Below, in pieces: positions 8,983 to 52,583 of a stretch of 64,000 bases of DNA. Source of the stretch: Loxodes magnus (Eukaryota > Ciliophora > Karyorelictea > Loxodida > Loxodidae). Position 1 is the stretch's first letter. Every line of letters begins with the position of its first letter. Where the stretch lies: NCBI GenBank assembly GCA_946699065.1, contig CAMPDV010000135.1, positions 186,001 through 250,000 of the forward strand, written 5' to 3'. The notes beneath the pieces are model-generated. The model was not told the DNA's origin. It ran no database searches and worked only from the letters and a program-made list of their open reading frames with translations. Both the position numbers and the translations under genes were made by a program.

Positions 8983-10350
8983 ATGAAAAGCTTATATAGA
9001 TAAAAGAAAAAACCAATAGTTCAGTAGAAGATAAAACCTTCACTTCCATCACCAATCTTGTAGCAAATTGCAATGTTCTATATTAAAAACCACATTGACT
9101 TGTATATTTTCTAGCTAGTTAGCAAAAAATGATATCAAGCTATTTAAAATAGCCTTTAAGTTTGGTAAAATATTGCTAAAAGCTAAGAAGGAGATATCCA
9201 AGTGCTAAAGTAGAAATTTATAGAGCAAATTTAGAAATAAAAATAGCAGAAAACTCAAAAATTTGTTAAGAATTCGAAACTAACTAAGAATTTGGCAATC
9301 TCATTGAATAAGTTCCTATAATTGGAAAATATGGTAAGTTTTGAATTTTAGAAGTTTAAAATAGATTTAAATGAGTAAGCTATTAGTATAAAATAAGTCT
9401 AGATATCTGATAATTCTGTAATGATCTTTCTTACTGACTTAAATATCAATCAAAGAATTAAGATGCTCAAAATTTAGTTTGAAAGTGAAGGCAAATTACC
9501 TAAATAACTAGTCTTTTAAAATGTTCAATTAAAGGTACTAGAGTAGAATAATATAATGGAGCTACATGAAGCTCAAAATCTAGAAAAAGGAATTAGCATT
9601 ATATTTGGGAAATTACCTGAAGGTTTCTTATAATTCGCATTTATAAACATTTGCACTGGCTTAATCTATTATCTTTTTAATTAGAGGCCTAAATAGATTA
9701 ACCTGTACGATAATATAGTTTCACTTTCATTAAGGAGAGGAAGCTCCTTAATCTGAAAATAGTATTTTTGCAATAAAGATTGCTAGTCAAACTGTTGGGT
9801 ACTAATAGAATCTAATGAAAGCTAAAGTTCTTCTTTCTATGAAACTTTATAGCTTGAAACAAAAAATTCTTAAAATAAAGTCTAAAAATTCAAAACTTTG
9901 TAAGCTTTATTAGCTATTCCTTGAAAAACCTAAGCTTTCTAAGGCAACTTTGAAAGCAAAGTTGTAGTTGATTACTAAATTTTCAGTTATGGGGTGCCAA
10001 GTCCTTTTTAGTATAGTTGTGAAATATTAAATTGCGAAGAACTTACAAGCAATAAGTTTACATATGAAAAGTTTTATATTTTGAGTAGCAGAAGTGTAGA
10101 AATGAATATAGCTCTTATACAAGATACTTATTTCATAAGCAGCTTAAAGGTTAAAAAGATTTAATTTAATTTCTTTTATTACTAAATGATATGCTTTTCA
10201 ATTAAGCACTAAAAAATATTAGGTCCTATCAAGTAGAAAGCAATCTTGTTTTTCTTAAATAAGACTTTAATTAGATGTTTTTAGTCTTAAGTTATTAAAT
10301 TAGCTAAAATATCTTTAAACTATTTTCCAAAATCCTAGGAAAACATTTGA
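8983..10350 (+). CDS. F-box-like protein
   Basis: From ATG 8983 to TGA 10348-10350 there are 455 codons. Residues about 20-60 match an F-box: LPSPILQQIAMFYIKNHIDL, then LVSKKWYQAIQNSLQVWQNI, with the expected LPxxIL start and LVSKxW core. A Gln/Lys-rich coiled coil follows at about 70-110. The remaining 340 residues are not a recognised substrate-binding repeat. F-box proteins recruit substrates to SCF ubiquitin ligases through Skp1; that this one does so is inferred. The TGA at 10348 may be read as Trp. The next 100 codons to TGA 10660-10662 still look protein-like (LENLAAIFNCLGVWFKLIGA), which would give 559 residues. The decayed counterpart is at about 49930-51300 in unit 2. Confidence 0.68.
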
Positions 10351-11058: not shown

Positions 11059-14000
11059 ATGTGAATCAAATTTTTTATTTTAACTTCTATTATCTCTTTA
11101 TCACTACAAAATGCAATAGATTTAATAGAGGGTGATTAGATAATTTAATATTCTGACTCTTTTAGAAACTAGGAGATTACTTTAAATTCAAGCTTTGATC
11201 TTCAATCAGCTGATTAATGTTGGCTTGTCACTCTATATTTTAAGCTTGAATTATCACCGGAAGACCTTGAAAGCTGTTACTGCAATTCTCTATGCAAAAA
11301 TTAGATTTTGTTTGAAATTTAAGGAAATTAATACAGATATTAGATTTCTCTTAAGCAGAATCAAAATAATATGTCAGTAACATTCGCTGTAATGCAAGAT
11401 AATAATTAAACAGAAGTATCAGAAGAAAATTAAATCAATGAGATTTGGCCTAAGCATTGATATTTAGCTTAAATATCTTTTAGTATAGACGGATAGACAT
11501 CTATTAAGTTCCAACATTTAGATAGCTTTGGCCTAGCTTAATAAACCGGAGATTTATAAATTGACGCTCTAAATTTTTCTTAACTTGAAGAAAATAATAA
11601 ATTTATATTTGCTCCAATAGACTGCATTTTTAATTAGTGTGATAACTTTACAAACTTCAATGGATATATATTCAAACCTAAATTCTATAATAATATTACT
11701 TGCAATTTCACATAGTTTCAAGATTGGAATTATAAATGAACTTCTGATGAAATAACTCTAGTTGAAGGCTTGTTTTACTCTAATAGTTCAATTTATTAAC
11801 CGTTTAAGTATTTCTAAAACTACAGCTATGACTCAAGTCTTTATTCTTGAAAAGCTTATAGTCTAAATGGATTTATTAAGTCAGATTGTGAATTGAATTT
11901 TAGAACAATTATGGAGATTTAAGACTAAAATGATGAAACTTATTTTGGATGGTTTATAAGGAATCCTTCAACTTAATAATTGTAATTTTCTTATCACTCC
12001 CAACCTATAACTTGTAATAAATAATTTTCTTTCTAATTGAATAGAAATTTAAATTAGGCATGCAACTCATGGCTATTTTTCTCTCTTTCGTTCTAATTTA
12101 ATAGTTTAGGCTATAGTTTCTAATTATGTAATGGAAAAGCTAATGATTAGGCAAGTATGTAATGTTGATATCTATAATATGCAAAAAATAAAGAAGATGC
12201 ATGGCTGTAAATATAAAAGAATCATAGAATTAAAATTGGAAATATTAATAAAGCAAGCAAATTTTATTACACAGGATACATGTATAATATCAAATTTTAT
12301 ACTAACAACTAATGATTTACATAAGCTTAAATGAAATAGCAAAATAGTGTTACTTTTAATCCTTAGCTGTAAAATCCTTTTGGTTTAATTGGTAGCTTCT
12401 TTTAAATGAACACAACTAATTTTGAAGGAATTTATAATATTTAGCAAAAATAATTTAATAACTTTTATTTAACAAAATATCTTAGCCTTACACTTTGACT
12501 TAGAATTGAATACTACGATAAAGAAAATCCTTGTCCAGGCTATGATTATCATACTATTGAGATTCTATGCTTAGTTGATTAAAATCAAAATGATTGCAGT
12601 TAGTTTTAATTTAAATTTATAATCAGCAATTAAATTAGTAGTCTTCCTTTTATAATTGTTGCTTAGCAAGATTTATCAGAGTATAAAAAGACATTAAACA
12701 CAGAAATATTACATAAATGGATATTTATTTATTTAGGCTTAGATTTCTTTAATAATTAAATCACTTGGAAAATATAAGATTCTTAATAATTATTTATAGA
12801 TTAAGATTCACAACCATTTCAATTATCTGCGTGAAATTTCTAGTCTTAAAAAATTATTTTTGGAGCTCCAAATTTAGTTGAATGTCATAAAAAGCTAATA
12901 GGAACAGTTCATTCTTACTATTTATTTACTGAAAACCTTATAGATGATACTTGATTTAACCAGTTATTTTAAGAAGGCCTTAGTACTACTTAAGGTATTT
13001 ACGGACCCAAATATAGTGATTAACTACAGCATTATTAGCTCACCGATGAAGACTATGCTTTGACAATAAAGTAGAACTATCAAATAAACTCTATAGTATT
13101 TTGGGATAAAGCAATTACATTTGATGAGTATACTTTAATATTCTGAATGAAGTCATTTATAAATACTACTTCCACTATATTCAAATTTATTTAGAACTCT
13201 ATTACAATTCTTAGCTTAAACTAAGATTTACAATCTAACAGCTATACACTCACTTATGGATCAGCCTAGATATAATTCACTGCTCCACAAAACTAAACAG
13301 TATTTTACGCTATAAAAGCATGTAAAGCTTTTAAAACAGTAAGCTTATGATATGATAATCTATTTGATGATCTAAAAGTTTAGAATCTATTTAGCAAGAA
13401 CTTAACTGAAATAGTAACTTTAGATCTATCTAAGCTTCAAATAATCTTTAGTACTGAAAATTAAATCCAAGCAAACATAACTAATTTTAAACTTTATTTT
13501 GGCTGTTTAGATTATTTCTAGATGAATCAGATGCTTATGGATAAATCATGCTCCAAAAGCTGCCCTGGTACTAATCCAATTAATTGCACTGGTCCATCGG
13601 ATTACGAATGCTAAAATTATGTTTAAGAATTTCCTTAAGAAAGACATAAAAATAACAGTTTATCATGCATAAATGACTATATCAGATTTAATCTAAATGG
13701 AGTTAAATAATGCATTAAATGCTAAGAAGGAGCTTCATGCATTTGCATAAATATGACAAAAAGTATAAGCTAATATAGAAATAATCTTTATAAGGAAAAG
13801 TTTTTAGATTAAAGTTCAATTTACTAAAGCTATAATCCTACAGGCTAAGTATTTTAACCTTACTTAAATATGAAGGATTCTTAGGTTGGAAATGCTTAAG
13901 GTATTTCACATATATTTTGAATAAAACCTGAATAAGGAGTTTTGATATTTTAGCATAATTATACAGACAATTAAGATATTTAATGAACCAAAATAAACTA

Positions 14001-17000
14001 TAAGTTTACCAATCAAAGTAATTTCCTTTTAATGGAAGCTAAAATAGTATGATTAAGCAATTAATAAATTGTAAATAGACTTTATTTTTTAATTTCTCAC
14101 TAGATAAACTTTTTTTACATATAGACCTCGATTTTTAGTTTAGAAGGATCTTCATAAATTAAGATCTGCGTTATTCAATATAACTTGAACAAAGCCTGCC
14201 TATTGTAAAGCTTTGGACACGATGTATTCTTTTAAATATCCAAATAAGATTCCATTATAATAAGTAGGGATAATTCACTTATTTCAATCTATTAACCTAC
14301 TTTTTATTTAGTTATGGGAGATAATAGTAAAGTATTTATTGAAAACTAGCTGATTTATGATTATGTGACTCAATTTGCCTAGCAAAGCTTCTAAGATACT
14401 ATTTAATAAATACCTTATATAGACAGCAGCTAAAATATATGAAGCAGTGAAATGTTTTATAGTTAAGATGGTAATCCTTAATATATAAAGCTACCTTCCT
14501 AGAAATACTTGTAAATAAAGTATAATTAATTACTTAATAAAAACATTATTATGCTAAAACCTTCATTTTCAGTTTCCTTATGAGTAGGAATTTCCTAGAG
14601 CTTTATTAAAAAAGGAGTATAGGTTACGATAATTAGCTTTAATGACTCTAGTTGTGGAAAAATATTTACTATAAGAGCATCGCACTATTAGCAATTACTT
14701 TAGGTAAAGAGTTCATGCTAGAAAGAATATTTTCTTTATAGCTACTTCTAAATAAATCGCCCAGGATATTACAAATTTGCAGCATCAAACTACCATTTTT
14801 TTGAATAAAACATATCATCCTTTGAAATGAATTTGTGTGTTTCTAATTGAGATTATACGAGAAAGTAATGTGTTAGGAAATAAGTTTATGGTGCTGTTCC
14901 TTGTAACTTAAAGCCAAGTTAAGATTCAAATATATTAATACTAGGAGATTTAGATTCTAGCTATAGCATAATTAGATCTTTCGATTCATTAACTCTTTGG
15001 CCTTATTAAGGTAGAAGAGGTTAGGAATTATTGGATAATCCTTATTAGACTGCATGCTAATTCTTCCTATCTCAAATACTTACTTTTCCAGATGGTTGCT
15101 TGGGACCATCATATACTGGAGTTTAATTAAAATTATTCAAGCAGTATAAGAAACAAAATATTTACTAAGAAAAGCTATCTAATTACTTTGAAATTGATTA
15201 AATATACTAAGATATTAGTGAAGCTAAGCTAAGTTTTGTATTTTGGTTTAAGATTCAAGTAATAGACACTCAAAACTAATAGACTATTTTAAAGTTTATA
15301 GGAACTGATCAGCATATGGAGATTAACCAAAACTAAAATATAATATAGTTTTCATTGAGTGACGACTAATTAGTAGACTAATATCTATTTGAAGTAAATA
15401 CACTATAATGGATATTTATGTCTTTAGATTTTACTTTTAGCTGATACCCTTAAACCTTAAATTTTAATATAAAGGAGTGAAATTAAAATAGACCTTAAGC
15501 AGTATAACTTGATATATCTGATTTTTACTTTGATATCTTTGATATCTTTGATTATATAGAAATAAGCGGAAATAATTCAAATACCTTTATTGACTATTTT
15601 GATTTCAGGTTAACTTATGGAGCTATTTCGTAAGAAGATCCCATACTTTTAGAATTCTTAATGGAAAATTAGTGCTAATGCCCCAATTCTTGCTTAGGAC
15701 CAGTTGAATGCAGTATTGAAGATTTAACTTGATATTAAATAACTAATATAGGATTTGCTAAATCTTTGGGATATGAATAGAGAGCAAAAATACTGAATTA
15801 CTAGAAATAATTCCTAGATATAGAATATTCTATCACAGTTTGATTTAAATAAAGCTAATATATAGATGCTTAAATATTGAAAGTATAAGTAGATACTTGA
15901 TAAATATCTTTCCAAATTAATAGCTAATAGCAGGTAGCATTATTAGACAGTAACTAATTGTTAATTCAAAGTTCTGATTATAAGATTAAGATTAATACTT
16001 GAACTTTATTAATTTTTAGATTTTCTGTATATAGATAAATTATTTCAACTGTCTTCTTAGAAAATTTGAATTTAAATTATAGTGAACTAATTGCATGATA
16101 ATAGGAAGTAAAGGCTTTTAAAAGCAATGATACTATTATAGTGGGATATAACAATTAAGCACTTTAATAAAATAACTATGCAATAGTTTATGATGCTAAG
16201 TATTTTTCTACTTTCTTAACATATTCACAAATATTCCAACTTTAATAAGCAAACATACTTGATTGTAACCAAAACGCTAATCAAGAAGGTAGTTATTTAC
16301 TTATTGACCTTAAGAATTGCCCAACACCATAAATAATGAACTGTTAAAACAGGTTGTAAGCAAATTCTTAGTGTCTTAGTACTTGTGAGCCAGGGTTTAC
16401 TTTGATTGAAAAGGATTGCATAAAATGTAGTTCTCATTAAGATAGATGCTAATATATCAACTCAGTTTTCATTCCAATTACTTGCTAATAAGGCTATTAC
16501 TTAGATCAAACTTCTAAAGAGTGTGTGACAACATGTTTAATAGGATATTTCATCAAAAATGGAGAGTGCTAGAAATGTCCTTCTAATTGTTAAGAATGTC
16601 TTTAAGAAGATGAATGCGTTTCATGTAGTTCTGGCTATCTTTCTCCATATTTAAATGAATGTGTTGAATCATGTCCTTCTGGATGATAAGTTCAAGATTC
16701 TAAATGTCAATAATGCCCATAATTTTGTGAAGAGTGTTAAAATGGATAATGCACTTCATGTAAAGACCCAAATCTATTTCCTCCAGATTGTAATTGAAAC
16801 TATGGTTTAAAATATTCATATTGGGCTTCCTCGTTATAAGATTATAATTGCTCTACTAATTTTAGTGTATAGTAGATAGAGAATAAAAGCAATGCCACTT
16901 AATCCTAAGTTAATAATTCCCAATGCTCAAATTTGTGTAATGAATGCTTAGGAAATTCCATCCTTTAATGTAAAAATTGCTTAGACACACTTTATTCCTA

Positions 17001-20000
17001 TTAAAATCAGCCAACTTTTTGTGTTTGCTCATCTCCAAATGTATTTGATTTTGCAACTAGTAGCTGTAAAGAAATATAGGATAAATAAGTATATTATAAC
17101 TATTAATTTGAGAATCCTATTTACAAATGATAGTGAAGTTACCTACAAATAGAAAATACTTAGAAAAACTCTAAATACACAATATTTGATACCATCAAAT
17201 CCATAGTAATCCCTTCTATTTAAAATTGCTACTTTCACTTTACAGTTTTTGTATAGTTTAAGTAGCAAAATTCCTACAGATTCAATTTCTATTCTAACTC
17301 AGATTGTTTTAATGCTTATCTAACTGATAGACTATATTTAATCACTAACAGCAACTAAATTAGAGTTAATTACTCAATGGAAGTATAGAAGTGATATTTA
17401 GTGGGAGTAACTATTAATGCCAAGCAATAAATTATGGGAATATGTGTGAAATGGTCAGAGTTATAAGGCGAATGCTGGTATTAGTATTTCCTTACTTTGC
17501 AACAATAAGCAATTAATCAAATTTCATTTTAATCAAGTAACGAAATGAGTGTTATAAACCCTCAGTTTTCTACTAAGGACATGGTTCTCAATATATATGA
17601 TATGGAGTATATTTGGTATCATAATCCATGCTAACTAGGATGTGGTTTTAAATGCAGTTCAACTGATATAGAGTCTACTTAATGTAATTGTGGACAAAAC
17701 TATTCTTATTGTAGTGACAATCAGTTTATATGCAAAGATCCCTAAGCATATTCTTTTAATTAGGAATAGTAGTATCCTTGTAGATGTAATGAAGGATATG
17801 TCTTAGATTACCAAAATATTTGTAGCGAATGCTAAAATAATGTGGGAGCATGCAAGTAATGGGATTAGCAGTGTTCGGAAATACCTTAAGAGGCAAATGT
17901 TGCAATAAGAAATCTACTTTGGCTAAAATATGATCTAAATAACGTAGATATCTTATAAAGCAACCAAGTCACACTTACAGTTTATTTGAGAACTCTCATT
18001 TCTATTTAAACTAATATCTTATAAGCCTTTAGTATGTAAGGAAGCGATGTATTAGACGAAATTATAAAGATAAGCATTCAAGGCAGCAATTTGACTCTTA
18101 AAGTAAAGAATTATGATCATTATTAAACAAATAACATTTCAACATCAATTAAGCCTTCAACTAATAACATGCTTATAACTCAATGGTATTTCATTTCTAT
18201 TAGCATAAAACTTCCACGCTTAAGATTTTGCTATGCAATTAAAAGTGGATGTGGCAAGTGTCAGGATTTGCATTTGAGAGAACTATAAGATTTATAGGTA
18301 TAATATTGGTTTTTAAAGACAGCTATCTTAAAAGAAAGCTTATAAGGTAAAAGTTTGGAATTAAAGGAATTACTAGATTAGTAGTATTTTTATGAAGCCA
18401 GATATATAAAGTAGTTGGTATACTTAACTCCATAAGATGCAGATTTTAAAAATAAATATTCAGACTGTTACTTAAAGCAAACTACTTATTGTGATAATAA
18501 TGATCCAAGATTAAATACTACTCTAAGGCAGCTTCTTTCTGCTTGCTAATTTCCAGCATGTAGATTGTGCACAGCTCAATCTTGTATTGAATGCGGATTT
18601 AATGCTTATTCAATTTACTCTGATGGATAGAATGTATAATGCTAATGTAATTAAGAATACATGCTACTAGACAACTAATGCGTGAAAAGTGATACATCTT
18701 GCTAAAAGGAAAACTGTGACTTAGATTTGAGTGACAAAGAATATTGAATAGGTAAAGGATGAAATAAACTATCAGATATGGATTTAGATAAAGGTTTGAA
18801 TTCTAAGATAATACTTGATGAAATTAAAATTAACAAATCATTTTCCTTTATAGCTTTCATAAATGTGTAAGATTTATAGCAATCAGATGATATTTTCCAT
18901 ATATATGACTAGCAACCAATATTACTCAATCTTTCCTATTAGTACTAAGACATGTAGCAAACTATTTATCTCACACATTTAACTTAGTAAATAACTGTCA
19001 AAACTCTAATCAAACCAAATTTATATTACATTCTATTTTTTTCCTTCAATCTATCAAACACCTGGAAAGTATGCCTTCTCCCTGATGATTAAAATTGCTT
19101 GTAGTGCTATGAAGGAGTACTTTCAATAAATAGTCTCGTAGGAACATATAAAATATAAGTTAACTCTGGAAAAATAAGAACAGGTAAGGCTTACTATAAT
19201 ACTAAGGAAATAGACTTCTAGTAAGGCAATGGTTAAGTTTTTAGATAATATAACGTAGAGTGCTTGATGAATGAGTAAATAAGTTAATGTAAGAAGGATT
19301 TCTATAATATAAGTTTAGTTTACAATTTGAATTTAAGTTATTCGCTTGAATAATTATATTACACCAACTACTACTTCCTATGCAATTATTTATAAGAAGC
19401 CTTCTACTTTTAAATCTTCTTTATCAGCACAAATGATTACATGACATTTGATCTCTTTTAAATCCAAGGAATAGTAAAAGTATCTTTATCTAGTTTCCAA
19501 ATTCTAGTAGCTGTCTATAATCAAACTTACACAACTCCACTTATAGTTCCTTAAGATGTGCTTGGAATCAGTATTGATTTGATAGACCTAAGGTAGCTTA
19601 GAATATGCTATATCAATCTTTAGAAGAACGAAAGATGCTGAACAATACAAACAAACATTGCAATAAATATCTCAAATTTCAACAGATCATAGAAACTAAC
19701 TACCTATTAACTACAGCAAAGCTACATTCCACTTTAGCTAGATTTCTGATTAAACTAAACAGATTTACACTAATTAACTAAATACGAAGAAACAAAACTC
19801 TATTGTGATATTCATATTTCCATATAAGCATATACATACAACTGTGCCCAAGTAGACATTAGTCCTATCATTTTAGGCAACTTCAACCAATTTTAATTTG
19901 AAACTATCGAAATAACAAATCAAGAATTAAGCTAATTAGGAGTGTCTTTCTGGTTTTTAAACAGATACTAATAATCGCTAATAAAGGAAGTTTTAAGAAT

Positions 20001-23000
20001 CTAAAATTAAGTTTAGCAGATATAAGTAAACTAAATTCTTGATGACCAATCAATGCTCTAGATTAAGCTTTAAACTGCTGATTAAAGCCAAATCATTTTA
20101 TAAGATAACTAAATTTAAACTAAATACACATGGGAATTCCTCTATTTGTGCTTTTAAGTTCCATAGCAGTAGATGTATGTTATAAGGAAGTAATGAAATA
20201 CCAATAAGATATTTTAAATTCTTACTTAAATTGATGCAATTCAGAACTTCTCACTCAATTCACAGCTCTATATAGGAAATGTTATGCTTCACAATATGCA
20301 GCTTTACACTATAGGCTGCTTCTCACCTTAAAACATTGCTCTATAAACTTTAAGGAGCAGATTTGCCTCAAATTGTACTTTAGGCCCATACAATTAAGAT
20401 TGCGAGCTATATTAAAATAATACTTTAATGGCTAGATATGAGTTGACTCACTAGCACGATTCTATATTTCTCTTTAATAAAACAATCTAGTGAAATACAC
20501 TAGAATTTAATATCAGAGTCAATGTTGAAAAAGTAGACTATCAAGATATCACATACACTGTCTGGCTTAAATATTTAGATACTCCTTTTGCTGGAGATAG
20601 AGTTATTTTTCATATGTCTAGTAATCTTTTAAATTCCAGCTTTCCTGGTCACAAACTACCTAAAGTTTATATGAGCAGTTAAAAAAACTATATAATGGAG
20701 CTTACTAATAATAAAGGAGAAGACTTAATTATTGAACTTGTTAGTGACGTTCAAACTTAATAGCCACATTTCTTAGTAATGCAAATCTGTAGAAAGAGCA
20801 ATTTAGCTGGTTTATGCATTTCTTCATATAATAATTGAAACTTGAAATGTAACTTTGTAAGCTTATAAGAGAACGAAATTCCTGTAATAGATTAGTTGAG
20901 AGGGTACAAAGTAGTGTTTAGTAATTAAAACAACCCTTATTATGGATTTTTAACTCATTTATAGTTATTCTAGCACTGCTTGATAAATTAGCAACTTTAA
21001 ACCATTTATAATTAAAAACAATGTGCCCAATAGTGCAAAGGAAAGTGCTTTGGAAATGGTAATAATGACTGCTTAGAGTATTAGCTTATGATTGACTCCA
21101 CTGATTAAATTATAGAAAATTCGGTAGTGTGAAAGCATTAAATGTTTCAGTATTTTTTCTCACTTAACTAAGAATTCTCTGTAAGCTTCTGGATAAAAAT
21201 AGAATAGCTAACCCAAAAGGCTTAAATCCTTAAAATAATAGACCGAGATATTGAAATAGTTCTATTGCAGCTATCAAGTACTAGCATTAACTTTACATGT
21301 ATCGAGTAATAAGGAAATTAAGCGTTTAACTTAGTATACAATAGTTGAATTTTCATTAACGTTAATATTTGAAGTTAATAAGGAGCTTAAAAATGCTCTC
21401 TTGAATATTTGAATCTGCTAACTAACTAAATTTAGGAAGACTAAGTTTTGTAGCTTTCTCATTCTTACTAAGTTTATAAGCTTGAACTTTATTTTCTATC
21501 TGATTAATTAAAAGGAAGCATAAAGAACGCCAAGATATATGACACAGGAGTAAGATTAAGTGAATATAATAAATATAACTTTAATACTAGCTATTTGATT
21601 TAAAGTACTCAGCATTGCTCTACCTTTGATAAATCTTAATGCACACTCTGTGAGAATGGCTTTGTTTTAATAAATGATTATTGTTACGCCTGCTATTTTA
21701 TGCTAGACCAATGTAAGGTAGTTTCAATAAATTAATAAAGTACAGGCTATTGTCTTTAAGGGTAATATGAGCAAGATAAAGACTGTGTCGATTCTGATTT
21801 ATGTAGATTTGGAACTTACCCTGATAGAGATGCTAGAAAATGTGCAAATTGTGATATTTCATGTGAAGGATGCATTAGTTTAAAAGAATGTCTGACTTGC
21901 AAAGCTAAGTATTTTATGCTATCAAACAATACAAATCAAAATAATCTTGTTACCAAGACTTGCGTACTCAACTGTGGTTAGGGTCTTTTTGGAGATTAAC
22001 TAACTTGAACTTGCAAACCATGTGAATATATTCTTTGCTAAAACTGCTAGTATGAAGCTAATAGATGCTATGACTGTAAAAGAGGGTTCTATAATCCTAC
22101 TGTATAAGAATCATTTTACTGCTAATGTCCTGCAGATCAATGCTAGAGTGGATTCGATTGTATATCGAAAAATTGTGAATCTAATTGCTCTTTATTCTAA
22201 GAGAAGCTAGAAGGAAATCCTATATTATTGAATGATGATAGCTATAGTACCTTTTACGAAAATGTTAATATTACATCTATGATAAAAGTCTTAGGAGATA
22301 GAACTATCAGTAAAGGCTTTTCTTTTATGACCTGAATTAAGTTAGAAAATGTTACAAGAGCTGAACAAAATATATTTGGATTAGTTTAAGAAAAATAATA
22401 ATTTAGCATTAAAATTAAGACTGATACTTGGTTCTTAGTAGTAGAAATTTAAAACTAGGCTATACTAATCTAAAGGCAGCTTTCAGTTAGTAATATAACT
22501 GGAAAATGAACTTTGATAGGAATCTCTTTTTGCCCTTATGTTAATGATAGATTTAACAATTTTTAAATATTTGCTTTTGTTAAAGACAAGCTATGCCCCT
22601 ATGAAATTAAAGTTCCTCTTTAAGTTATTTTTCAAGTTAATCTAAATACTAAGATACATCTAGGAGGAATATTTACAAATACTTTCTAAGGATATTTACT
22701 CATGAGTTAACTGTTCCCAGATGGAAGATGTTCTTTAAAAATTGAGAACTTACAGTATAGAAAATTAAATACTCCATGTAATTAGAATTGTAAAGGCTTC
22801 TGCCTTTTATCTTAGCCTAACATGCAATCTTGTAAATAATTATCTTGTGACTTACCCAATAATTATGATGCTAGTAAGTAGTATTTAAATTTCACTGATC
22901 TATCATATGCTGAAAGTTTTGATGTCACAAAATAGAAAAGCTTCAATTTAAAAAATTAGTTGTACTAGGGTGGATGAACTATAAGCATTTGATTTTATTC

Positions 23001-26000
23001 CACCTCACCTGGATAAATTTCTCTTTTTAGCATAAAATCTTTGGAGAGAGGAAATAATAACTTTACATATGCATAACTAACCTACAATTTTGTGACTTAT
23101 TAGCTAGTCTTTAGATATAATTAAGACTAATAAGTTACTTTTAACTACTAAGTAATAGATGTAGGAATATGAAATTTAGTAATGGTCACTTGGACTAAAA
23201 ATGAATTCAAAAATATTAAAGACGAAGCAGTTAATCTAAGAATATGCTTCAGCAGATACAGCTCTTGCCCCATTTGCTAGGATTAAAAGTTGGCTTTTAC
23301 ATAAATGAAGTAAAATTCGCTACTATTAATAGGTTCTTAGTAAAACTATTCGTTTAGTGGTTAAATTCTTTCAGGAAGGATATATTCTGAAGCTCTTTTA
23401 TCTACTGATTTAAGCCTTATATAGCCTACTAGTGTTATGAAGTATTATATGGAATATTCTCCCTGCTAAACGTATTGTGAAACTGGTGTGTGTCTATAAT
23501 ATCAGCCAGATACAGGATTTTGCGTTTACTGAGTAGTTCATAGTTTCTTCTTATCTTAAGCTACTTATACCAGTAGCACCTACAAAGCAACTGATCCTTT
23601 ATTCCTTAAAGATAACTTTAACTCTTAAGCATTTTCTGTCTTTTTCTAGGCAGATTTTCAATAAAATCTGAATGATTTAGTAGATGTAGAATTTGCCAAA
23701 TTTGTGAATCAAGCTGGAATAATTTCAAGAATAGGCTTTCAGAACCAAAACATTTATGCAGAAGTTTAGCTGCAAGATAAAGTGGAAAGAATTTCCCTTA
23801 AATAATAGAATCTCTATTAGGGATATTATGGATTAGGATATGGCGTATCTTACCAAAATTAAGCGTAGAATCTAATTTTATGTGCAGTTAAGTTCAATTA
23901 CTCTGACTATGAATGCGAGTAGGTGGCTTTAACTAGCTAAACATATAGTTTTAAAGAGCTTAGTTCTAACATATTTTAAATTACTGCCTAAGACTTGATA
24001 GGTATAACTGACTTATACTATCTCTCACATACTAGCTTGGATAAGATGCAGCTTATATAAAATATATACAATTCATCTTCATGCTATCAGATATGCAGAG
24101 ATAGATGCTTTGGACCTGAAGCATCCTCTTGTTCCAAATAAATAGTGAAGAAATAAGAGTTTTCAGGATAATTTTATTATGAGTAGGAATTTGCTGAGTT
24201 CTAGTTCACTAGAATTAATCGCTTTGCTATAGTTTTGTGGTAAGTTGATGAGATTATAACAAAGCAGGAATCAGTCTCACTCTTAATAAAAGACAACGAT
24301 GAGGAAAATATAGTACTGACAGTTAGGAAATAGAATGACTATTTTGTTAATTCTTTGTATATTAAAGATTAACTTATTTAAGACTTTGGAAAAATACTAT
24401 TATCAGTCTGGAATTTTGTAGTTGTTTCCATTTGTGATTAGGCTATAATGTTAGCAAGTTCAAACTGACCTGATAACACTTTGGAAATACATGAAATTTC
24501 TTTTCCTAATTCAACTGGAGGTATTAACAGCCAGAGCTCTTTCCTATATTTAGGCGGAAATAGTGAGAGAAGCAGTGCTTAAAAGAAATAGGGAAAGATG
24601 AACGAAGTCAACTTCTTTTACTCAGGATGCTTAAATAAATAATAAATTAAGAAAGTCTGACTAAATACTAAGCAATGTGGATAATTGTGCAATAATTGCT
24701 TTGGTCCATTTGATTAGGATTGTACAATTGATTATGCAGAGTAGTATTAAATTACTGGTAAGCATGTTGCTCTCTCCTTATATTCCGAATCATAAATTCA
24801 ATACTTAGACTAAAAATTCAATCGTTAAACCCTAGACTGGAATGACTATTCACTTACTTTCTGACTTAGGCCATTTAAATTAAACAGTAAAGTGAAGAAT
24901 GTTTTAAAACTAATGAATGGCTAATAGACTGTATCCTTATATAATTAAGATGGAACCTATATCTAAAGAGTTTAACATGAATCTCAACAGTTTCAAACCT
25001 AAATACAGAATGAACTTAGAGTCATTGAAGAGAAAGAATAGTTACTAGTTGTTTAGGTATGTAGCTCTGCTTCCTACATAAAAATGATTCAGACTGATTA
25101 TTTAAAGAGTTATTATAAAGTAGATGCTAGCCAATTAGATTCAAATGTTTAGTTTTAGTCTAAAAATTCTTAGATCTGATTATCAGCAGGTTAGCAATTC
25201 TAAGGATATGCTGCTGATTTAAGAATTTGGAAGGGATGCTTAAGATCTGCTTAAATCGAACAGTTAGTGGAAATTACAAAGTAAGAATGCTCTTCTAGAT
25301 GTTAAAAGACCTGCTTTGGAGTTACTAATAGAGAGTGCAGTGAATATGTGAATCTATTAGACTTAAGATACAGCTCTACTGATATTATGTTTGCTTCATA
25401 GTTTAATGATTTCATTTTTATAGGCTAAAACTTTGAATAAATAAGAAGGGAAATATACCCTCTCTGTGATTGGTCCATCACTTTCTGAATTAAGTTATAG
25501 TATGCCCTTGCTAATGATAAAATATTCAAGATAATTTCAGGATTTCAAAAGTTAGAAATATTTTCTCTTAGCATAGTAAAGATATGTAAAACCTGCTTAA
25601 GTTAGTTTGAAATAAGTATTAAATAAAGTTTTTATCTGAATAAGACAATCTTTTATTCTGAAAAATATGAAAACATATAAGGAGTTTGATTTTTCTTTGG
25701 ATTGACAAATAAATTTGAATAAGAATTTTTCCTTTTCTTAAAATAGTCTACAAGTAATTCTCAAGAGGTAAATATTTTGCGTTCAAGTTCTTATTTTTAA
25801 TAAGGAAAATCTCTGTCAAGTGATTGCATTAACGCTTAGTAAGAAAATTACCTGCAATTATATATATTTGGGAGCGATGAGAATGAAGAGTCTAGTAGTG
25901 GTTTTACATATGATATTCGTTTATATTTGTAGATCTTATCAATAGACCAGTATTTGCAAATCTTTAGCACCGTTTAATGTACGGATAACTGCAAGACATG

Positions 26001-29000
26001 TAAAGATATGATTTGCTAAGAATGTTTATCGGGATTCGTGTTTTTCATGGGTTAATGCATACAGTGTTGCTTCTCTACAAATGAATGTTTCGATCTGTCT
26101 TGTGATGACCTAATGAGTTGCAAAGCTGGATTATTTAAATAATATAACTCAGTTTTAAAAAAGTTTGACTGTGTAAGCAAATGCAATAGTGGATTTGTAT
26201 AGAATGAGTAATTAGGAGAATGTGTATGCTCATATTGTAAAAATTCCTAAGATTAACCTTAAATTCTCTATGTTGTATCAGAATAAAATTATAATACAAA
26301 TGCTCAGCAACTAAGAGATTAAGATAATTTCTTCTCTTCATTGTTTTAAGCCTTAAATTCAGATTTGGTTTCATAATATACTATAGTATATCTATCAAAG
26401 GAGATTCATAATTTTTAGCCTGAGGGAAATTTAACTTCTCCTTTACTAGATAAAAACAAGAAAATATCTAAACCTTATGATATTCTCAATATAACAACCC
26501 ATAATTGTTAGGGAAATTGGAACTAAATAATGTGTCCTTAGAATTCACAATAACAGTATCCCAAAATAGAAGTTTTAAACACAAGCGTTACGTTTGATAT
26601 AAAGGGGCTAAGATTAGTCAATATTTCGTATGTAACTTTTAGTGGTTACTAGCTAAACTAAGACCAAAGCGGCTTCTATAAAGATTGCTTTCCCTTGCTA
26701 TTCTAAATATCTAATATTGAACTTGAGGATAACTAAATGAACTGTAAGGTATTTGAAAGAAACTAGTTTATAACAGTAACTGAAAAAGCATCTTTATTCC
26801 TATACAATGTAGTAATCTAAGATTTTAGAATTTAGTATTAGAACTATATTTATGTAAAAGATGCTGCTGTTATAGCAGAACTTACTAGATTCACTAACTT
26901 GGAAGCAAGTTAAACTATAGTTAAGTATGATTCCTGTGATTGTGACACTGACAGTATTTGTAGTTGTTGAAACAATTTCATACTTTAGCAAAGTACTGTT
27001 GAGCGTATAAATTATAAAGTAAAGCAGTAGAAGTTCTAAATCATGCATGGCTTCATATAAGCAGACTATATGGAACAAATTATTATAGAATCTTCTTTAT
27101 TTTAAGATAATCAAGTCCTTTAAGATAGCTTGATCTTGCTAAGTCAGAGCAATAGCATTCTAATAAAGGGAAGTTCCTTTTTGAGAAATGAAGGAGATAT
27201 GATATAGATAGATATTAAGAAGGATATGCAGAGTTCTATTTTAGTTTTAGATAATCAAGTTTAAGATAATATTGGCAGCATTTCCTTCTTACTAAACAAT
27301 CCTAATACAAACTTGATAGTTAAAGGACTTAACTTTACCAACAATACAGGAAACATCAAATTTGAAAGCTAATTAGAAAAAGCTCCTTCTGCTTCTGTCA
27401 TAAACGTAAGCTTTACTAAAAACACAGCTAGTTAACTACTCTTATCTTCTAACTTATATGCTATGTGACTAGAATCCCTATACTTTTAGGATAACAAAGG
27501 AACTAGTTTAGACATAAGAAGTACTAATCTTACAATCCTGAAAAGCTTCTTTAATAATACAGGAAATATAGCTCTGAAAGCAATTTAGAAGGTAGAAGTA
27601 ATAGATTCTTAGTTTTATAAGTGTAAAGGGAATTAAATCTAAACTAGTATGATGAACATCTATAATTCTAATTTTAGTGACAACCAATAAGAAAAAGGTG
27701 GAGCCATTTAATTCATGTAAGATCTCCAACTTAACATTTTCAATTCCTCTTTTTCCCTTAATAAAGCAACACAAGGAGGAGTCTTTTATGGGACTTTTAT
27801 TAATCTCAACATATCAGACTCCTACTTTGATAAAAACTCAGCAGACTATGGAGGAGTATTTTAGATTTAGTCTTCCTTAATCTCTTAATAAACTGCTTTG
27901 ATTTATATTGAAAACACCATTTTTAAATCTAATCAAGCGTAAATTCAAGGAGGTGGAATTTACATAGTAGAAGATTCATAGAAAAGGATTCTGTAAATTA
28001 GCAATTCCTTCTTTAATAGCAACTATGCTTCAAGAGGCTCAGCAATTTTCATGGATTCCATTTAACTTGAAAACTCTTTTATAGAAAAAACCCATTTTGA
28101 AAATAACTCAGGAAATAGGGGAGTTCTTTCAATAAAGATAAACGGGGTACTAAAGTTATATGAGAACTACTTTAAAAGCAATATCTTGAATGGAGTTTCC
28201 TGCATCGAACTAATATAATCAAAACTAGAAATATGGGAGTCTCATTTTTATAGCAACTAAGAGCAAATTTCTATTTTTGCTTAAAACTCTTCTTTAAAAA
28301 TAAAGTACTCTGTATTTAAAAATAATAGCGGGTCTTGTCTAAGTCTATACTAAAGCGATTTAGACTGTGGTGACTCTCTTTTTGAGGAAAACAATGGTCT
28401 TTAAGGAAGTGTTATATATGCTAATACCTATTCTAACTTAAGATTTTATGATTCCATTGCATCTAAAAATAGTGCAGTTGATGGTGCTGTTTTTGCAATA
28501 ATACAGAACTCATTTATAAATATAAGCGGATCAAGTGTAACTTATAACAAAGCGTCTTAAATTGGAATCATTTATTTAGAAGCATAAAGTTCAGCCTTTA
28601 TAAGCAAATCTGCTTTTTAGTTCAATGTTGCTAGTATCGCCTCATTTCTATATATGCTAGGATGCTAAAACGAGACTATTGTAGTAAACTCCATTATTTC
28701 TGATAACTAAGCCTCCTAATCTACTGTGTAGGCATTTTTATCTAACTTTAGACTATAGAACACTTAAATGGGCAATAATGAGATAATTAAGGAAAGCAAG
28801 AAAGAAGGAACGCCTGGAATTTTTATGGATTTTGCCTCAGCAAATATATAAAACAGCTAGTTTTATAATCACACTGCATATAAAGGAGATTTTTTCTATT
28901 CCATAAATAGCAAACTTTACATATCAAACTCATAAATATAAGCAAAAGGAGTTTCAATTTACTTAATAAACTCATAGTTTTAAGCTAATCATACTATTTT

Positions 29001-32000
29001 TAAAGAAATGCAAGCTGAAGCTATAATAGGATCAAAAAGCTAAGTATAGATGAAGAATTGCATGTTCTATGAAAGCATTAGTAAAGTTCCTATTTTATAT
29101 TTTGAAAATAGCGAAATTGATAGTAGCGATAATATCTTCGAAAACTGTACTGATATCTTTTATTTAGCTCAGTGTAACGCTACTGTTAATCATAGCGTTT
29201 TTATTAATTCTAACAGATCTATTTATAGCTTAGATCACAAGCAACTAGTTATTTAGCATTCTCTCTTTAGCAACAACACTGCTAAAGTAGGAGGATGTTT
29301 ATACCTAACAAATAGTAGAAAGGAGCTAATAAACACTTACATTCTAAATACCATTTTTGATTCTTGTAAAGCAGATGAATTTGGAGCTATTTTTGCCTTT
29401 AATGTAAACTTGTTTCTTAATATTTCCTAATTTAAGTTTTGTGAAGCAACTAACATAGACAGTACCAAGGGAAGAGCAGGCGCTATTAAACTTTAGTGCG
29501 ATTAAGAAAATTGCACTCATTTTATCTCTGATACCTACTTCCGTTATAATAAAGCAAAAGAAGGAGGGGCAATTCATTTCTAGGGAACTACTCCTTAGTT
29601 TGGATATTAAATAGGAAGTTAATAATTTTGCAGCTATTTCATAGAAAATTAGGCAAAATATGGCCCTATTCTAGCTACTTTTGCTACTTAGATTACTAGA
29701 TATACCAAAAATATACCAGATCTATGCTAGAATATTAGAGAGCTAAATGAAATGGAAAATTAAGAAGAAGACTAGATTATCTAAACTATTCCTGGAGACA
29801 AACCTGAACATTTTCAGTTTGCCGTTTTAGATCCTTTTGGGTAAATAGTTAGGACAAATAACGAATCAAGTATTAATATAGAAAGTAGTTGCACCTAAAA
29901 ATGCTTATATGGAGATACTTACTATAAGGCAATTAATGGAATACTTGAAATTAAAAATTTAAGAATAACAGGATAATCTTCAAGTATAGTAAAGCTAACC
30001 ATTTAATCATCTTAATCAAGCTTTCAGATAAAAACAGCTCAAATATAATTATCTAAATGTGTGGAAGGATAATAGATAGAGGGATTTTACGAGCAGTAGG
30101 AATGTAAATTTTGTCCAGCTAACACTTACAGCTTTAGTAATTAAGAAAAATGCAAATTATGTCCTACTGGAGCTAGATGTTATGGAAGATAAATAATGAC
30201 TCCTAAGCATGGTTATTGGCGTTCTGGATACTATTCAGATAAATTTTATAAATGCTTTAGATCAGATTCATGTTTAGGTGAAAAACTGACCTGATCTTAA
30301 CAATCAAATATTGAGGATACAATTCAAAGAGGATAAATAAACTGAAAAGGCGAATGCTAATATGGCTATTAAGGCGTTCTTTGCGAAATATGCATTGAAA
30401 ACTATTAGAAAGTGGGAAGGGAGTGTGAAAGATGTCCAGAAAGCTTGAGTAATAAATTTAAGCTTGGCCTTATCACTTATATAGTGTTTTTAGTATGCTT
30501 ATATATGATCTTTCAGTCCTTAAAAATGACAAATAGGCCTTCATCACTTATTTCAGTTTTCTTCAAAGTGCTTATCAACTATATCTAATTTATTCAGTTA
30601 GTAATCAGCTTTCAGATTAAATGACCTTCACTCATACTATCTCTTATAAGCTCATAATATAAGATAGCAGAAACAACAACTAGTTTCGTAAGTATGTAAT
30701 GTCTAGTAGGAAATAATCATTTAGATTCTCATTACTTTTGAACAGAATTAATCATAATGACCTCCACTCCTTTGCTAATTTTAATTTTATCAGCTTTATT
30801 TTGAATGATATACTCCGTTTATAGTAGAAGTATGATTTATATGAAAAACCACTTCATTTCGACTGTCACTGTATTCATATTTTTCTTTTTCCCTAGTATG
30901 ACAAAGACCATTTTTGAAACCTTTAACTGCATAAAAATAGAAGAAACCTATTATTTAACAAGATATTTTGAGATTCCCTGTTGAGAAGGAGATCATTTAT
31001 ATTATGCTCTGCGGTTAGCTTTACCTGGGTTAATATTTTGGTGCTTTGGTATTCCATTTATATTTTCTATTCTTCTTTGAAAGTCTTAGGATAAAAATAA
31101 GTTTGGATATATTTTAGTTGGATACAAGCTTAAGTATTACTACTGAGAGATAGTTATACTCTACTAAAAGTAACTTTTGGCCTGTATTGTTGTGTTTTTA
31201 AATGTCTTTGAAGTATAAATATAAGCTTTATGTTCAATTGCTTTGTTTCTTTTGGCAGGGTAATACTAATACATTTTATAACCTTTTCAAACAGAAGCTT
31301 TAAATGCTCTTCAACTAAGATCTATTATAATAGCTGGAGTAACTACTTATTGTGGGCTAATAGTAATGTCCACTACTAACGAAGTAATGTCATTAATCCT
31401 CTTTATAGTGCTAATTATGTGCATTGCTTATTTTATGCTGCTATGGGGTAAAGAAACTATTACTGAAATGGGAATTACAATCTAACTTCACTCGTTCTGA
31501 CTTTACAGAGTTCTATGTCCTTGCTTGCACACAACTCAACATATTAGACTATTAGATCATCTGATTATTCAAGATTTAAATAAGAACATTAAAAAATAGC
31601 TTAGAAGAGAATTAAAAAAAGTACAGGCAGCAGATTAAATGAAATTAGATTAAGAACTTCACATTTGTAGATTGGCTAGAATGGAACGTAAGGAGTTCTT
31701 CAGAGATGTCGCTTCTAACTTTCAGAAGCTTCATTTTAAAGATGGATACTACCAATTCGTATGAAATAAGGAGCGGCTTCAGTTCCTATTTAATGAACTC
31801 AATTAAATTTAGCAAAAGTCGTAAAGGCAACATTTTAAAACACCAATTTTTACTTTAAAAAATTCTCCAATTAAGGAAAATTAACTAACCTCAGAGTAAA
31901 AAAAAGATAAATTATAAAGGGTAATATGAAATGAGTATGTTCCTAAAATAAACGCTCAGTCTTAATAGTAATAGGAAGAAAGGAATGTTGAAAATACTTA

Positions 32001-33291
32001 TGTTACTACTTAAGATGAAATGCTCAACTAGACTTAGGTTTCATATTATGATTCTTCTAGTAAACTTAATAAAAGTCCCGCTATACCTTAATAAATTAAA
32101 GAAGAGGAATCTGTTTTAGAATCGCAATAAATAGAAAAATTAGAAATGGAGGAAGAGAAAAAATCTCCAAAACGTATAATTAAAAAGTTATTTAAATTTG
32201 AGAAAAAAGGCAAAAAAAAAAAATAAAAAGAAGAGAACAAAAAGAGTTAAGACAATAATATTCAATAGTAAAATTAATTGTCTATTTCTCCAAATTTTAC
32301 AAAAATACTTATGAATGAAAATGAAAATAAAAGAGTTTTAAATTTCTATTAGTTAGAAATCTAAGGACAGAAACCAGTTAATAGATTTGGAGCATAAGTA
32401 TGCAATTTAAGCCAAGAAATATACTTATTTGGAGGTTAAGCACATGTTAGATAAAATTTTGTATGATCAATCAACTTATTGGACTCTGAATGAATTTAGA
32501 TAATTGAAGGACCTCCAATGAAATATGGAAGTTCTATGTTTATTTTCAAAAATATGCTGGTAATATACGGAGGAGTTAGTAAAAGAAGAACTAGTTATAG
32601 TGCAAAACATTTTTATCCTTATTTATGCAAAATGGATCTCAAAAGTTTATAATGGAATAGCAAAGCTCTTAATATTGAAGCAAGAGCATTTTAATCATGC
32701 TGCTTATTAGGAAATTGGTTAATAGTATCAGGAGGTAGAGGATAATCAGGAAAATTTTTAACTGATATATGGGCAATTAATTTAAACAACGATGAAGAAA
32801 CTTAATTATAAACTTCTCTGAAACCTCTTATTTAGCATTCATTTACTCCTGTTTTTGAAGAGTCCATTATGAATAATTTATATCTTGATCTATAAAACAT
32901 TAACTGCTAACAAAATGAAGGACTATATGTTTTCGGTGGAATGGCGCAAAATGGTAACTTTGAAAGTTGTTTATAGAAAATAAATCCTTAAAATTGAAAG
33001 ACATAAGTTATTTCAAATGAGCAAATTCCTCCTAGAAGTAGTCACTTAGCATTCTTATATTAAAAGTAATTGTGAATATATGGTGGACAAAGTAAGCAAG
33101 ATAGTGAAATATAACCTTTAAATGATTGCTATGCTTGGCATATAGAAAGATAGCAATGGAATCAAATTTTTATTCCAGGTATTACACCAAGACGATCCCC
33201 TTTTGGAACAGTGGTTTAGCAAAATTTCATTATATTTTCTCAGGAAAATGATAATGAAGAGTTACTTGTAATAGATTTAGACTCTTAATGA
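11059..33291 (+). CDS. Giant LamG / beta-helix / multi-pass membrane / Kelch protein, 7410 residues
   Basis: The reading frame runs from ATG 11059 to TGA 33289-33291. Frame checks at 16321, 22021, 30121 and 33271 all agree, so no frame-changing intron is needed. Residues 1-18 are a signal peptide (MWIKFFILTSIISLSLQ; codon 2 is TGA=Trp). Residues 20-5100 are repeated LamG/ConA-like modules with recurring FSVSFWIK-type strands, separated by short Cys linkers such as CSKSCPGTNPINCTGP. Cys-rich furin/GCC2-like blocks lie at about 1755-2000, 2190-2275, 2475-2555, 3515-3715 and 4970-5060. Residues about 5180-6190 form a pectin-lyase-like beta-helix (repeated SxFxxNxAxxGGxxY). Residues 6330-6465 end in CQYGYQGVLCEIC. 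About eight membrane helices follow at 6468-6808, then a charged cytoplasmic coil, then a Kelch propeller at 7105-7400 (EIYLFGGQ, LVIYGGV, LIVSGGRG, LYVFGGM, LWIYGGQ). It is probably a surface receptor or adhesin with an intracellular adaptor domain; that role is inferred. Confidence 0.85.
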
Positions 33292-34199
33292 AATTCCTTT
33301 ACTTAAATAATTTAAATTGTTCTGATTGAGATTTTTATTAATAGAAATATCTCAAAAGATCAATATAATATTAATTAAAAGTATCTCTAATATGCATCAA
33401 AAGTAAAAAATTGCAGTTATCATTCTATTTATTCAAAATTTCTACATTTTCCTATTTATTCTACTATTTAATTATATTACTAAACTAAGTTTTATTCTAG
33501 TATATAAAATAACTTTTATACTATTGCTTCGTGTTATGTTTTTAGTGTTAGATATCCTCTATGAGTATTAATAGAAGTAGATTGAATATAATGGTGTATA
33601 TTCTCAACCTAATGATTTTAAATTAGCTATATTAATTTTTATTATATAAATAAGGTATAAAAGGCAGTGCTATTATAATCTTATTGAGTATATCTTAAAT
33701 TATCCTAAAGTTAGTTTTAAATTGGCATCATTATATTTATTCAAGTTGCATTTTTATATTAATATCTTTTCTTAATAACTCAAGCTAACTCATTTAGATT
33801 CTTCATAGTAGATAAAAGAGACAAAACTAATAGCTACTATACTTTATCATCCTTACAATTTTCCTAAAATAAATAGATAGTCTCTATACTTAAGGATTGT
33901 AAGATATTGAGAGTAAATTTAAAATATTTAATATATAATTACTAAGAAAGATAATATGCTTTTCTTATAATTTCCTCAAAAGAAAAAATATTCAAACTAG
34001 ACTCTTTTTAGATAAATAAATTCGAAAAGTAGTAAATCAGGAGATTCTAAATAAAACTTTAAACTAAAATTACCTCTAAAATTTATGACTAGGCTATTGG
34101 ATTAGCTTTACATCTATTTTTAGACTTAAATAAAATTTATTATATTATATTAAAATTATTTGCAATTTCCAACAGATCGCCGCTTAAGAAATTTTTTAT
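33292..34199. other. AT-rich stretch downstream of the giant gene
   Basis: The giant gene's frame stays open after its TGA for some distance, but the translation becomes low-complexity Ile/Tyr/Gln/Phe-rich and the Kelch domain is complete. I therefore treat this as the 3' flank. No other gene was seen. Confidence 0.5.
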
Positions 34200-34947
34200 A
34201 GTTTGAGTTACTAGCTTTTAGCGAGCTCTAGTATTAGTGAGTCTTGTCCTTATAATCACTCATCTCCTACCTTATTTTGTTCTAATTATATCTTCATTTT
34301 CTTTTGGTCCAAGACTTCTTTTCAGCCTATATACTTCTCCATTTTTCCTGCATCAAATTTGGCTTTAGCTTTTCCTCATTTGTATTTGCATTGATTCCTT
34401 CATAACTGTTCTTTGGCCTTACTAAATTCTTCGCAATTCTTCCATATGTGTTTCTTGCTCTAAAAGTAGTAATACATTTTCTTTTCCTTAGGTGTCTGCT
34501 TTTCTTTCTTCATTTGTTGTGGTGATTATTCTATTTCCATCTTACCATAATTAATATTTTAATTCTAATAGAATCTATTAACTTTGAGAACTCTTCTAGC
34601 TTTGAAGATGCATTCAATCTACTAATTCTGGTCTTGAATCTTCTGCACTTTCTTGCTAGTTTCGCTAAACTGCTCTCGTTTAGTAATTTCAAAGGTCGCC
34701 GATCTCTCACTCCTTATAAGCCATTCTGAGTTCTAAAGTATCTTAGAATGTGCCGAATCTATTCCGTCAGCTTAACATTCTTTTTCTGGAGCTTCCTAAT
34801 CTCTTCTAGATGTTTAAAAATAATTTAATGAGCTGTTCTCTACTTGTTTAACCAGAAGGATAATCCTGAGACCACCTGATGTAGGGAGGACTTCGTTTGC
34901 TTCTTCAAAATTTCTTCCGTGGTATTTATTAACGTGATGTAAGTCAT
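34200..34947 (-). pseudogene. Decayed coiled-coil / zinc-knuckle-like gene (copy A)
   Basis: A G+C-richer island whose reverse-strand translation gives a basic helical N-terminal part (LEEIRKLQKKNVKLTEQIRH) and, further on, a degenerate zinc-knuckle-like segment (HIWKNCEEFSKAKEQL). It belongs with three neighbours at 36450, 37891 and 38865 that share the order coiled coil then CCHC knuckle then Lys-rich tail. The family is unclear: a retroelement gag/ORF1-like protein or a host nucleic-acid-binding protein. It is broken in roughly one or two places and looks old. Confidence 0.45.
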
Positions 34948-35040
34948 TTTTGCAGCTATTTTTACTTCTCGTATCTCTGCTACGTTCCAAGCTCCTATTT
35001 CTTTGAAATGGGGAAAAATTATTTTCTGAAGTCCGTCATC

Positions 35041-35465
35041 TTTTTTTAAATAAAAATTTAGCTTAAAGAGTTAAATTAAATACATATTATCAATAGAGGA
35101 ATTAATTTCCCATGTGAGCGTGTTTATAATCATTTTTTTAATTATTTGTATTAGTTTTGAAGTAAAAAAGAGGAGAAATTATTTAAGTTAGGGATACTAT
35201 TAATTTATTTATGATGGTATTAGAAAAATAAAGCAGAATCAGTCAATATAATTTATTTAGCTCTAGATAGTATTGAAGGAAGCATCTACATAGTAAAGTC
35301 CTGAACAATTTTAAAAAGCCAAAAGCTAACAATAGAATAAAAGCGAAAATCTTATAAATATGGAATCCTTTATAGCAACAAATGCTATATCTATACATTA
35401 TAAGCTAAAAAATCAAACACTTCAACTATCTACTTAAGAAATGAGAATGATTTTAAAATATTGAT
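35041..35465. other. AT-rich spacer
   Basis: No gene was recognised. It separates the decayed zinc-knuckle copy A from the uncertain open region that follows. Confidence 0.4.
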
Positions 35466-36388
35466 GTAAGATAAGCATAATAAGAATTTATTATTTTTAA
35501 ATTTACTGCAAAATAATAACAAGCAATCCTTATAAATAATCATTAATCAGCTAAATATTAAAACTACTCTTTAATAAAATTCTGAAAAGTCTTAAAATTA
35601 TTAATTCATAGGATCGAATAACTTATAGAAGTTTCATTTAAATTTAGTAGTTTAAACTAAATTACTTTATCTGCTAAAAAGTAGAACTAAATTAATTACT
35701 TTAATAAGAATCGTAAGGATATTAGTTTAAATAAAGTAAACATTAACGATATGGAAAAATATCAGAATCTCTATCTGAACTAGATATTTCCCAACATAAA
35801 ATTGAAAGAACTTATTAATAAGATTTAGTTTAGTTTTAAAAGCCAAAGTAATTCCTTTCTAAATCCTTGAAGAGTGACTTATATAATTAAATTATCCTGA
35901 CTAAAGGAACCTGAAGATAGTTTATGTGATGAACATACTGTTTAATTCTGAAATAAAAATAAGATAATTAAGTTTATCTTTAAGCAGTTATTTAATATTT
36001 GCTTAAATGGATTCAAAAATTGTAGGATATGAAAGAATCGAACTTAGCTTTGCTTAAAAAGATTATAGTTATTAGAAGTAAAGGTAAATATTTTCCAATT
36101 AATTTCTCAACGAAATAAAAAGGAGCAATCAAAAAAGAACCAGAAGTGAACGTAGACAAAAACTTGTAATAGATTTTTGTAAGTTTACTAATAGCAGAAA
36201 ATTTACTTAAACAGAAAAATGATAAAAATTAAGAGCAGCATTCATAAAGTATTTAATTAAAACAATTAAAATTATAAATATCAGAAATTTACAGCATTAT
36301 ATCAAAATGCAGAGATGTAATGAATGCTTGTAGAATATATAATTTAAATAAAAGCCTTGAACTTCCTATAATTTATGGTTTAATTTGA
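35466..36388 (+). CDS. Uncertain open region with protein-like stretches
   Basis: The frame is open to TGA 36386-36388. Several parts look coding, for example ISESLSELDISQHKIERTYQ and LLKKIIVIRSKGKYFPINFS, followed by a Lys/Gln helical end (VDKNLQQIFVSLLIAENLL). No ATG lies in frame near the beginning, and a tandem TGA TGA occurs near 35933, so the real gene may start or end inside. No family is recognised. It could be a short host gene with unresolved ends or chance openness under a code with one stop codon. Confidence 0.3.
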
Positions 36389-36449
36389 TAATTTAAACTT
36401 CTTTAAAAAAGAATAGAGTTCTTAATGGTAAATATATATGTAAACTAAA

Positions 36450-37865: not shown

Positions 37866-37890
37866 CAATAAAAGTTTTTATATTCAATAC

Positions 37891-38741: not shown

Positions 38742-38864
38742 TTTTTTTTATTCTTTAGCTTTAAAATTTATTATTAAACACTTTATTACGAGCCATGCTG
38801 CCTGTTATATCAATTAGAAATAGATTTATGATAATTTCATCTTTTAAAAGATAAGATTAAAAAA

Positions 38865-52573: not shown

Positions 52574-52583
52574 AAAAAAAAAA

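Follow-up and report, generated by a model that had tools for sequence, protein, structure and literature searches.

Kelch propellers of the KLHDC and LZTR1 type belong to soluble proteins, one of which, KLHDC2, has a C-terminal ligase box, and LamG domains occur widely among adhesion proteins. The Pfam family TRP (PF06011) covers the fungal TRP/Pkd2/Flc-type proteins, and none of its members is known to combine a giant ectodomain with a C-terminal Kelch domain. The gene described in the following comes from Loxodes magnus, a ciliate of a genus known for its gravity-sensing Mueller vesicles. Judged by its predicted parts, it is a real, apparently old, new domain combination assembled from known components. 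Literature searches, mostly of work outside subscription, listed no publication on this architecture among their matches, and the word Kelch does not occur in the main texts of PMC12716839 and PMC9960496.

The window, that is, the whole stretch of 64,000 nucleotides analysed, corresponds to C135:186001-250000 (C135, C149 and the like being contigs), and the genome searched comprised 705,730,643 bases in 7,843 contigs. According to the genome report (PMC11441545), the macronuclear (MAC) assembly of L. magnus amounts to 706 Mbp; its genetic code is table 27, with TGA as the sole stop, read as tryptophan too; introns average 19.3 bp with a mode of 17 bp and a depletion of multiple-of-three lengths; and the roughly 20 codons upstream of true stops are depleted in TGA and TAA. 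On the plus strand, where all parts of the gene are located, the table 27 translation of the window runs from an ATG at 11059 to a TGA at 33289-33291, giving 7,410 codons plus the terminal TGA. The frame holds 591 TAA or TAG codons and 70 TGA codons, including the terminal one, and is readable without any intron. The sequence-only reading had argued from frame arithmetic that no net-frame-changing intron is needed; the intronless reading holds, but the argument by itself is weak, because table 27 offers no stop other than TGA. Openness of the frame was discarded as evidence for the same reason, and the gene was therefore judged by comparison between copies, which in a code that lacks a dedicated stop settles the boundary that an open frame does not. 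The terminal TGA aligns with C149:390905 and is preceded by 71 codons free of TGA, but a TAA lies immediately 5' of it, against the reported depletion, and counts against the gene model. As to the surroundings, a glycosyltransferase sugar-binding DXD match (4.3e-13) is found at about 1097-1399 of the window, an F-box-like match of 24.0 bits, just below the cut-off of 24.3, at about 9040-9177 upstream of the giant gene, and the minus strand of 33300-42000 gave no Pfam match.

Gene-long matches were obtained at three places on C135 and at one on C149. For the C135 copies, residues 3-3400, 5001-7086 and 7094-7409 served as queries, residues 3401-5000 being left out. The copy at C135:299600-321823 matches all queried residues with every piece in one frame, and its gap over residues 3401-5000 measures the same 4,800 bases as in the window gene. 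The copy at C135:244599-266222 keeps the frame and the spacing of the window gene from residue 204 onward, its start being broken up by a retroelement. This element of non-LTR type, about 6.1 kb long with endonuclease and reverse transcriptase matches (window 52560-58647), is flanked on both sides by a short direct repeat and sits within the start of the second tandem copy (51932-52559 and 58648-64000). Comparison of window 30052-33288 with C135:262989-266222 gave mosaic divergence, with Ks of 0.45 in collar and core and of 0.037 in the Kelch part, which suggests gene conversion between the tandem copies.

The diverged copy on C149 is collinear with the window protein, at 32.3% identity over residues 1-568, 51.0% over 577-5085 and 52.9% over 5090-7409; it includes a single unbroken match of 2,332 columns from the beta-helix-like region through to the Kelch part and begins, as the window gene does, with an ATG (369010) and a hydrophobic stretch. 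Its three pieces each lie in a different frame. The first break falls between residues 568 and 577; there the two pieces share some of their DNA, and about 90 codons are apparently missing. At the second, between residues 5085 and 5090, the spacing is off by one base. Both may reflect an intron, a frameshift or an assembly error, and because of them C149 does not represent a clean second intact gene. When window and C149 are compared in 47 segments of about 150 codons (31 + 16), third-position differences are commonest in 46, the sole exception being the linker segment at 31717 (66/40/62 differences at the three positions). The two long aligned pieces contain 62 TGA codons of the window gene, of which 44 stand opposite W in C149 and 18 opposite another residue. 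Against C149, the ratio pN/pS is 0.40 in the ectodomain, 0.28 in collar plus core and 0.24 in the Kelch part, with pS near saturation (0.74-0.75). With the frame kept in the C135 copies, each long C149 piece in one frame and the terminal TGA aligned, the single 7410-codon coding unit proposed at the outset is borne out, and with it the order of parts, as far as sequence can show; 11059-33291 reads as a single intact gene.

The predicted protein starts with a signal-peptide-like hydrophobic stretch (residues 1-18; 11059-11112), recognized by hydropathy, and continues with a LamG-like, cysteine-rich ectodomain (11113-26313), recognized by PF13385 matches and a W motif. PF13385 is matched at 1.4e-15 and 58.1 bits, against a cut-off of 27.6, in three stretches within residues 2401-5100, and this score supports the LamG assignment; in a piecewise Pfam scan, the piece 22900-24900 exceeded the cut-off with 30.3 bits, and four other pieces stayed below it. 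Within residues 1-5100, a W motif of LamG type, picked by eye, has 14 matches, seven of the 13 spacings being 177-221 residues, and an iterative LamG search within the window protein returned its seed, one weak match (0.04) and nothing more. Counts of cysteines per 100 residues mark a dense block at 16276-16938, furin-like by eye and free of Pfam matches. Farther on, at 26596-29628, an excess of the rung-like motif [ST].F..N was found (17 observed against 1.2 in shuffles, with 0 of 2000 shuffles as high), the one feature that suggests a right-handed beta-helix. The extracellular beta-helix claimed by the sequence-only reading is a candidate fold; apart from the rung-like repeats, the region shows no clear period in hydrophobicity and no significant family or PDB match (Chlam_PMP 0.043; pectate lyase 0.22 and 0.29). 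At the C10 loci treated below, LamG-region matches of 29-31% identity precede the cores by about 10 kb, which suggests that these copies carry a similar ectodomain.

Between ectodomain and membrane lies a cysteine-rich juxtamembrane segment, the collar (30052-30465), which has cysteines that are invariant in 16 family members; its match to PF23091 is weak (6.7e-6; 26.4 bits, under the cut-off of 33.2). Nothing exceeded the cut-off for an ephrin/TNFR-like segment, PF07699 reaching at best 21.7 bits against 23.1, in a paralog. In the core that follows (30466-31443), hydropathy rises to nine peaks, of which two, at 1.30 and 1.32, are weak. The mean net charges between successive peaks are +2.1, +0.4, +2.6, -1.6, +3.8, 0, +0.6 and -0.4, with +5.8 after the last, and nine membrane crossings are a prediction only, because three of the inter-peak stretches have just two or three residues or little charge. 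Taken with the hydrophobic start, the alternating loop charges fit an N terminus outside and a C terminus inside, so that the cytoplasmic position claimed for the Kelch part holds as a prediction.

New here is the membership of the window core in a large membrane family. The core search scored at least 82 matches from 2,916 candidates at first look, and a second core query at least 85 of 1,237. The window protein gave no PF06011 row in Pfam scans at E up to 0.5 and up to 0.1, and the family consensus reached 5e-4 and 6e-4 (19.4 and 19.1 bits, under 28.5). Among the 16 core-family members, five matched PF06011 at E < 0.1, none over the cut-off and the best, on C22, at 28.1 against 28.5 bits. 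Of 71 places scored in a genome-wide PF06011 search, seven matched and two exceeded the cut-off: C1:602900 (34.4 bits), which with 371 bits to the core profile belongs to the family, and C1:613344 (33.7 bits). Against the PDB, the core profile had no match up to E 1, and the consensus had two non-significant ones (E 1.8), both to the calcium-sensing receptor, in its cysteine part. Homology to PF06011 is assigned through the member C1:602900 to the core family and not to the window protein; this family link points to a channel-like window core and ties a large uncharacterised membrane family of the L. magnus genome to TRP-type proteins.

The C-terminal part (32338-33288) comprises, by Pfam and repeat alignment, five diglycine repeats and a degenerate sixth, and as its predicted fold a Kelch propeller with some six blades is strongly supported. 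PF24681 scores 124.3 bits there against a cut-off of 50, and PF24981, PF13964, PF13418, PF01344 and PF13415 are over their cut-offs too; the best Pfam match is KLHDC2/KLHL20/DRC7 (6e-36), followed by ATRN-LZTR1 (6.7e-23). Five GG repeats occur in the C135, C149 and C18 copies and six in the three C10 copies. Among the best 60 of 89 PDB matches, a five-row Kelch profile was closest to KLHDC10 (5.6e-28), LZTR1 and KLHDC3, and matched dynein heavy chains and plant specifier proteins as well, so that the similarity names no role. Elsewhere in this genome, contigs C1503, C119, C9, C1832, C620 and C272 gave many equal-scoring, evenly spaced WD40 matches, a pattern like that of long tandem arrays.

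Core and propeller are connected by a linker (31444-32337), in which comparison with C149 distinguishes conserved blocks from a nearly unconstrained lysine-rich tract (32071-32337). The last in-frame TGA before the Kelch part, at 31927-31929, is TGA in C149 too and is followed by the conserved NxYVPKI. From 31930 to 32463 the window has no in-frame TGA, nor has C149 from 389561 to 390904, that is, between the TGA at 389558 and its end at 390905, and in the other two C135 copies the stretch from the conserved linker block to the Kelch part is likewise free of it. The window frame next has TGA at 32464 and 32491, both within the Kelch part, where C149 has TGG. On this evidence, the Kelch part does stand in frame behind the membrane region, as had been claimed. 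Over the 43 codons after 31927, pN/pS between window and C149 is 0.56, and over the following 88 linker codons 0.94. Aligned in frame 0, the linker 3' of the last TGA has a local score of 140, against 55.3 ± 8.5 and a maximum of 97 in shuffles; because both shifted frames beat their shuffles as well (97 and 98 against maxima of 78 and 76), the test supports the frame without deciding it. GC content is 22-36% in the linker and 22-23% at 32100-32399, and since it is 17-23% past the stop, GC does not distinguish the AT-rich linker end. On C18, core and Kelch part share one frame once a 19-bp GT-AG stretch is removed; five such stretches could restore the frame, the T-rich one of 19 bp being the most intron-like, and 19 bp is a usual Loxodes intron size according to PMC11441545. 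The C18 linker has an in-frame TGA after this putative intron and before the Kelch part, which counts against a single protein, and in the C10 copy that was read, core and Kelch part lie in different frames.

How widespread the fusion is was assessed in a genome search that gave 55 Kelch matches out of 89 candidates scored. Eight of the 55 are fused to a core (three on C135, one on C149, one on C18 and three on C10), the two matches always standing on one strand, in the same order and 0.6-1.5 kb apart. The genome therefore does not carry its Kelch homologs solely as stand-alone genes, these eight following the same membrane core. A core within 1.5 kb upstream was present at 8 of the 30 Kelch loci fetched; the remaining 47 matches comprise 22 fetched loci lacking it within that distance and 25 with no core among the matches listed. 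Conversely, six of 30 core loci fetched (of at least 82) have a Kelch match within 1.5 kb downstream, a range that a farther one would escape, and the 1.5 kb in frame downstream of the core at 10 of the 24 fetched Kelch-less core loci gave no Pfam match at E ≤ 0.01 in any of the ten. Four of the eight fused loci are strongly diverged (Kelch identity 26-31%), and for this reason the fusion looks old. Repeated core-Kelch fusion in diverged copies is in this sense established, by sequence comparison.

That the linker ends a membrane protein and a separate Kelch gene begins behind it, sharing its frame by chance, is very improbable: window, C149 and two C135 copies have no stop in the linker, which is why we keep this reading at so low a level, and constraint persists past the TGA at 31927, while eight loci repeat the arrangement at close distance. 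It draws on the 47 of 55 Kelch matches with no core within 1.5 kb upstream or among the core matches listed, on the 88 nearly unconstrained linker codons with a GC content in the past-stop range, and on the TGA in the C18 linker. We also think it unlikely that common modules were joined into the Kelch fusion repeatedly, leaving fused loci without a special shared function. In the Kelch tree (30 rows) a single branch separates the fused rows from the others with support 83/85, rising to 95/92 without C18 and 94/89 without C10, but they sit on long branches, and without the C135 and C149 rows SH-aLRT falls to 50 in a quick tree whose careful search was not completed. In the core tree (30 rows) the fused rows require two changes, yet the data do not reject a single clade for them (p-AU 0.349); the tree tool flags long branches meeting in both trees.

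Considerably more weight, if still the lesser share, goes to the same single protein without a channel, which would be a receptor for adhesion or recognition and would recruit through its Kelch part a cytoplasmic adaptor, for example ubiquitin-ligase-like or cytoskeletal. The ranking of the Kelch matches, in Pfam and among the best 60 of 89 in the PDB, would suit it, as would the LamG domains and the window core's own lack of a PF06011 match; against it stand the propeller's matches to dynein heavy chains and plant specifier proteins, the tie of the core family to PF06011 through one member, and the chain's stop right behind the propeller, which leaves no room for a KLHDC2-like C-terminal ligase box. 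The best explanation overall, to which we give about even credence, is one giant surface protein joining ectodomain, collar, a nine-pass core of a TRP-related family, linker and Kelch propeller. In such a protein the ectodomain may bind, or be pulled by, a partner outside the cell, the nine-pass core might convert this into a signal, ionic or conformational, and the propeller could dock a cytoplasmic partner, whereby outer contact and inner assembly would be coupled within one chain. Work as a channel or as the receptor proposed by the sequence-only reading is in either case inferred. If true, a ciliate giant surface protein would bear its own cytoplasmic propeller and would have kept it across deep copy divergence. 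Unlikely, by our estimate, is the further step to a karyorelict class of force- or ligand-gated giant TRP-like channels in which a cytoplasmic Kelch propeller, fused early, serves for built-in docking or gating; such a channel would find a natural setting in Loxodes, the tie being to the host genus and not to the organelle.

With LamG (PF13385) adhesion ectodomains, one of the closest known systems, the predicted giant protein shares three stretches in residues 2401-5100 (1.4e-15), but when scanned by pieces one exceeds the cut-off and four fall below. The [ST].F..N rung-like repeats recall Pmp- and pectate-lyase-like beta-helix proteins, whose best matches are non-significant (0.043; 0.22 and 0.29). 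PF06011 is approached through the core-family members C1:602900, over the cut-off, and C22, at 28.1 bits, whereas the window protein itself has no match. The propeller is close to those of KLHDC2/KLHL20/DRC7 and ATRN/LZTR1 (Pfam 6e-36 and 6.7e-23; KLHDC10 in the PDB, 5.6e-28); KLHDC and LZTR1 proteins are soluble, however, whereas the window propeller closes a predicted membrane protein at its C terminus.
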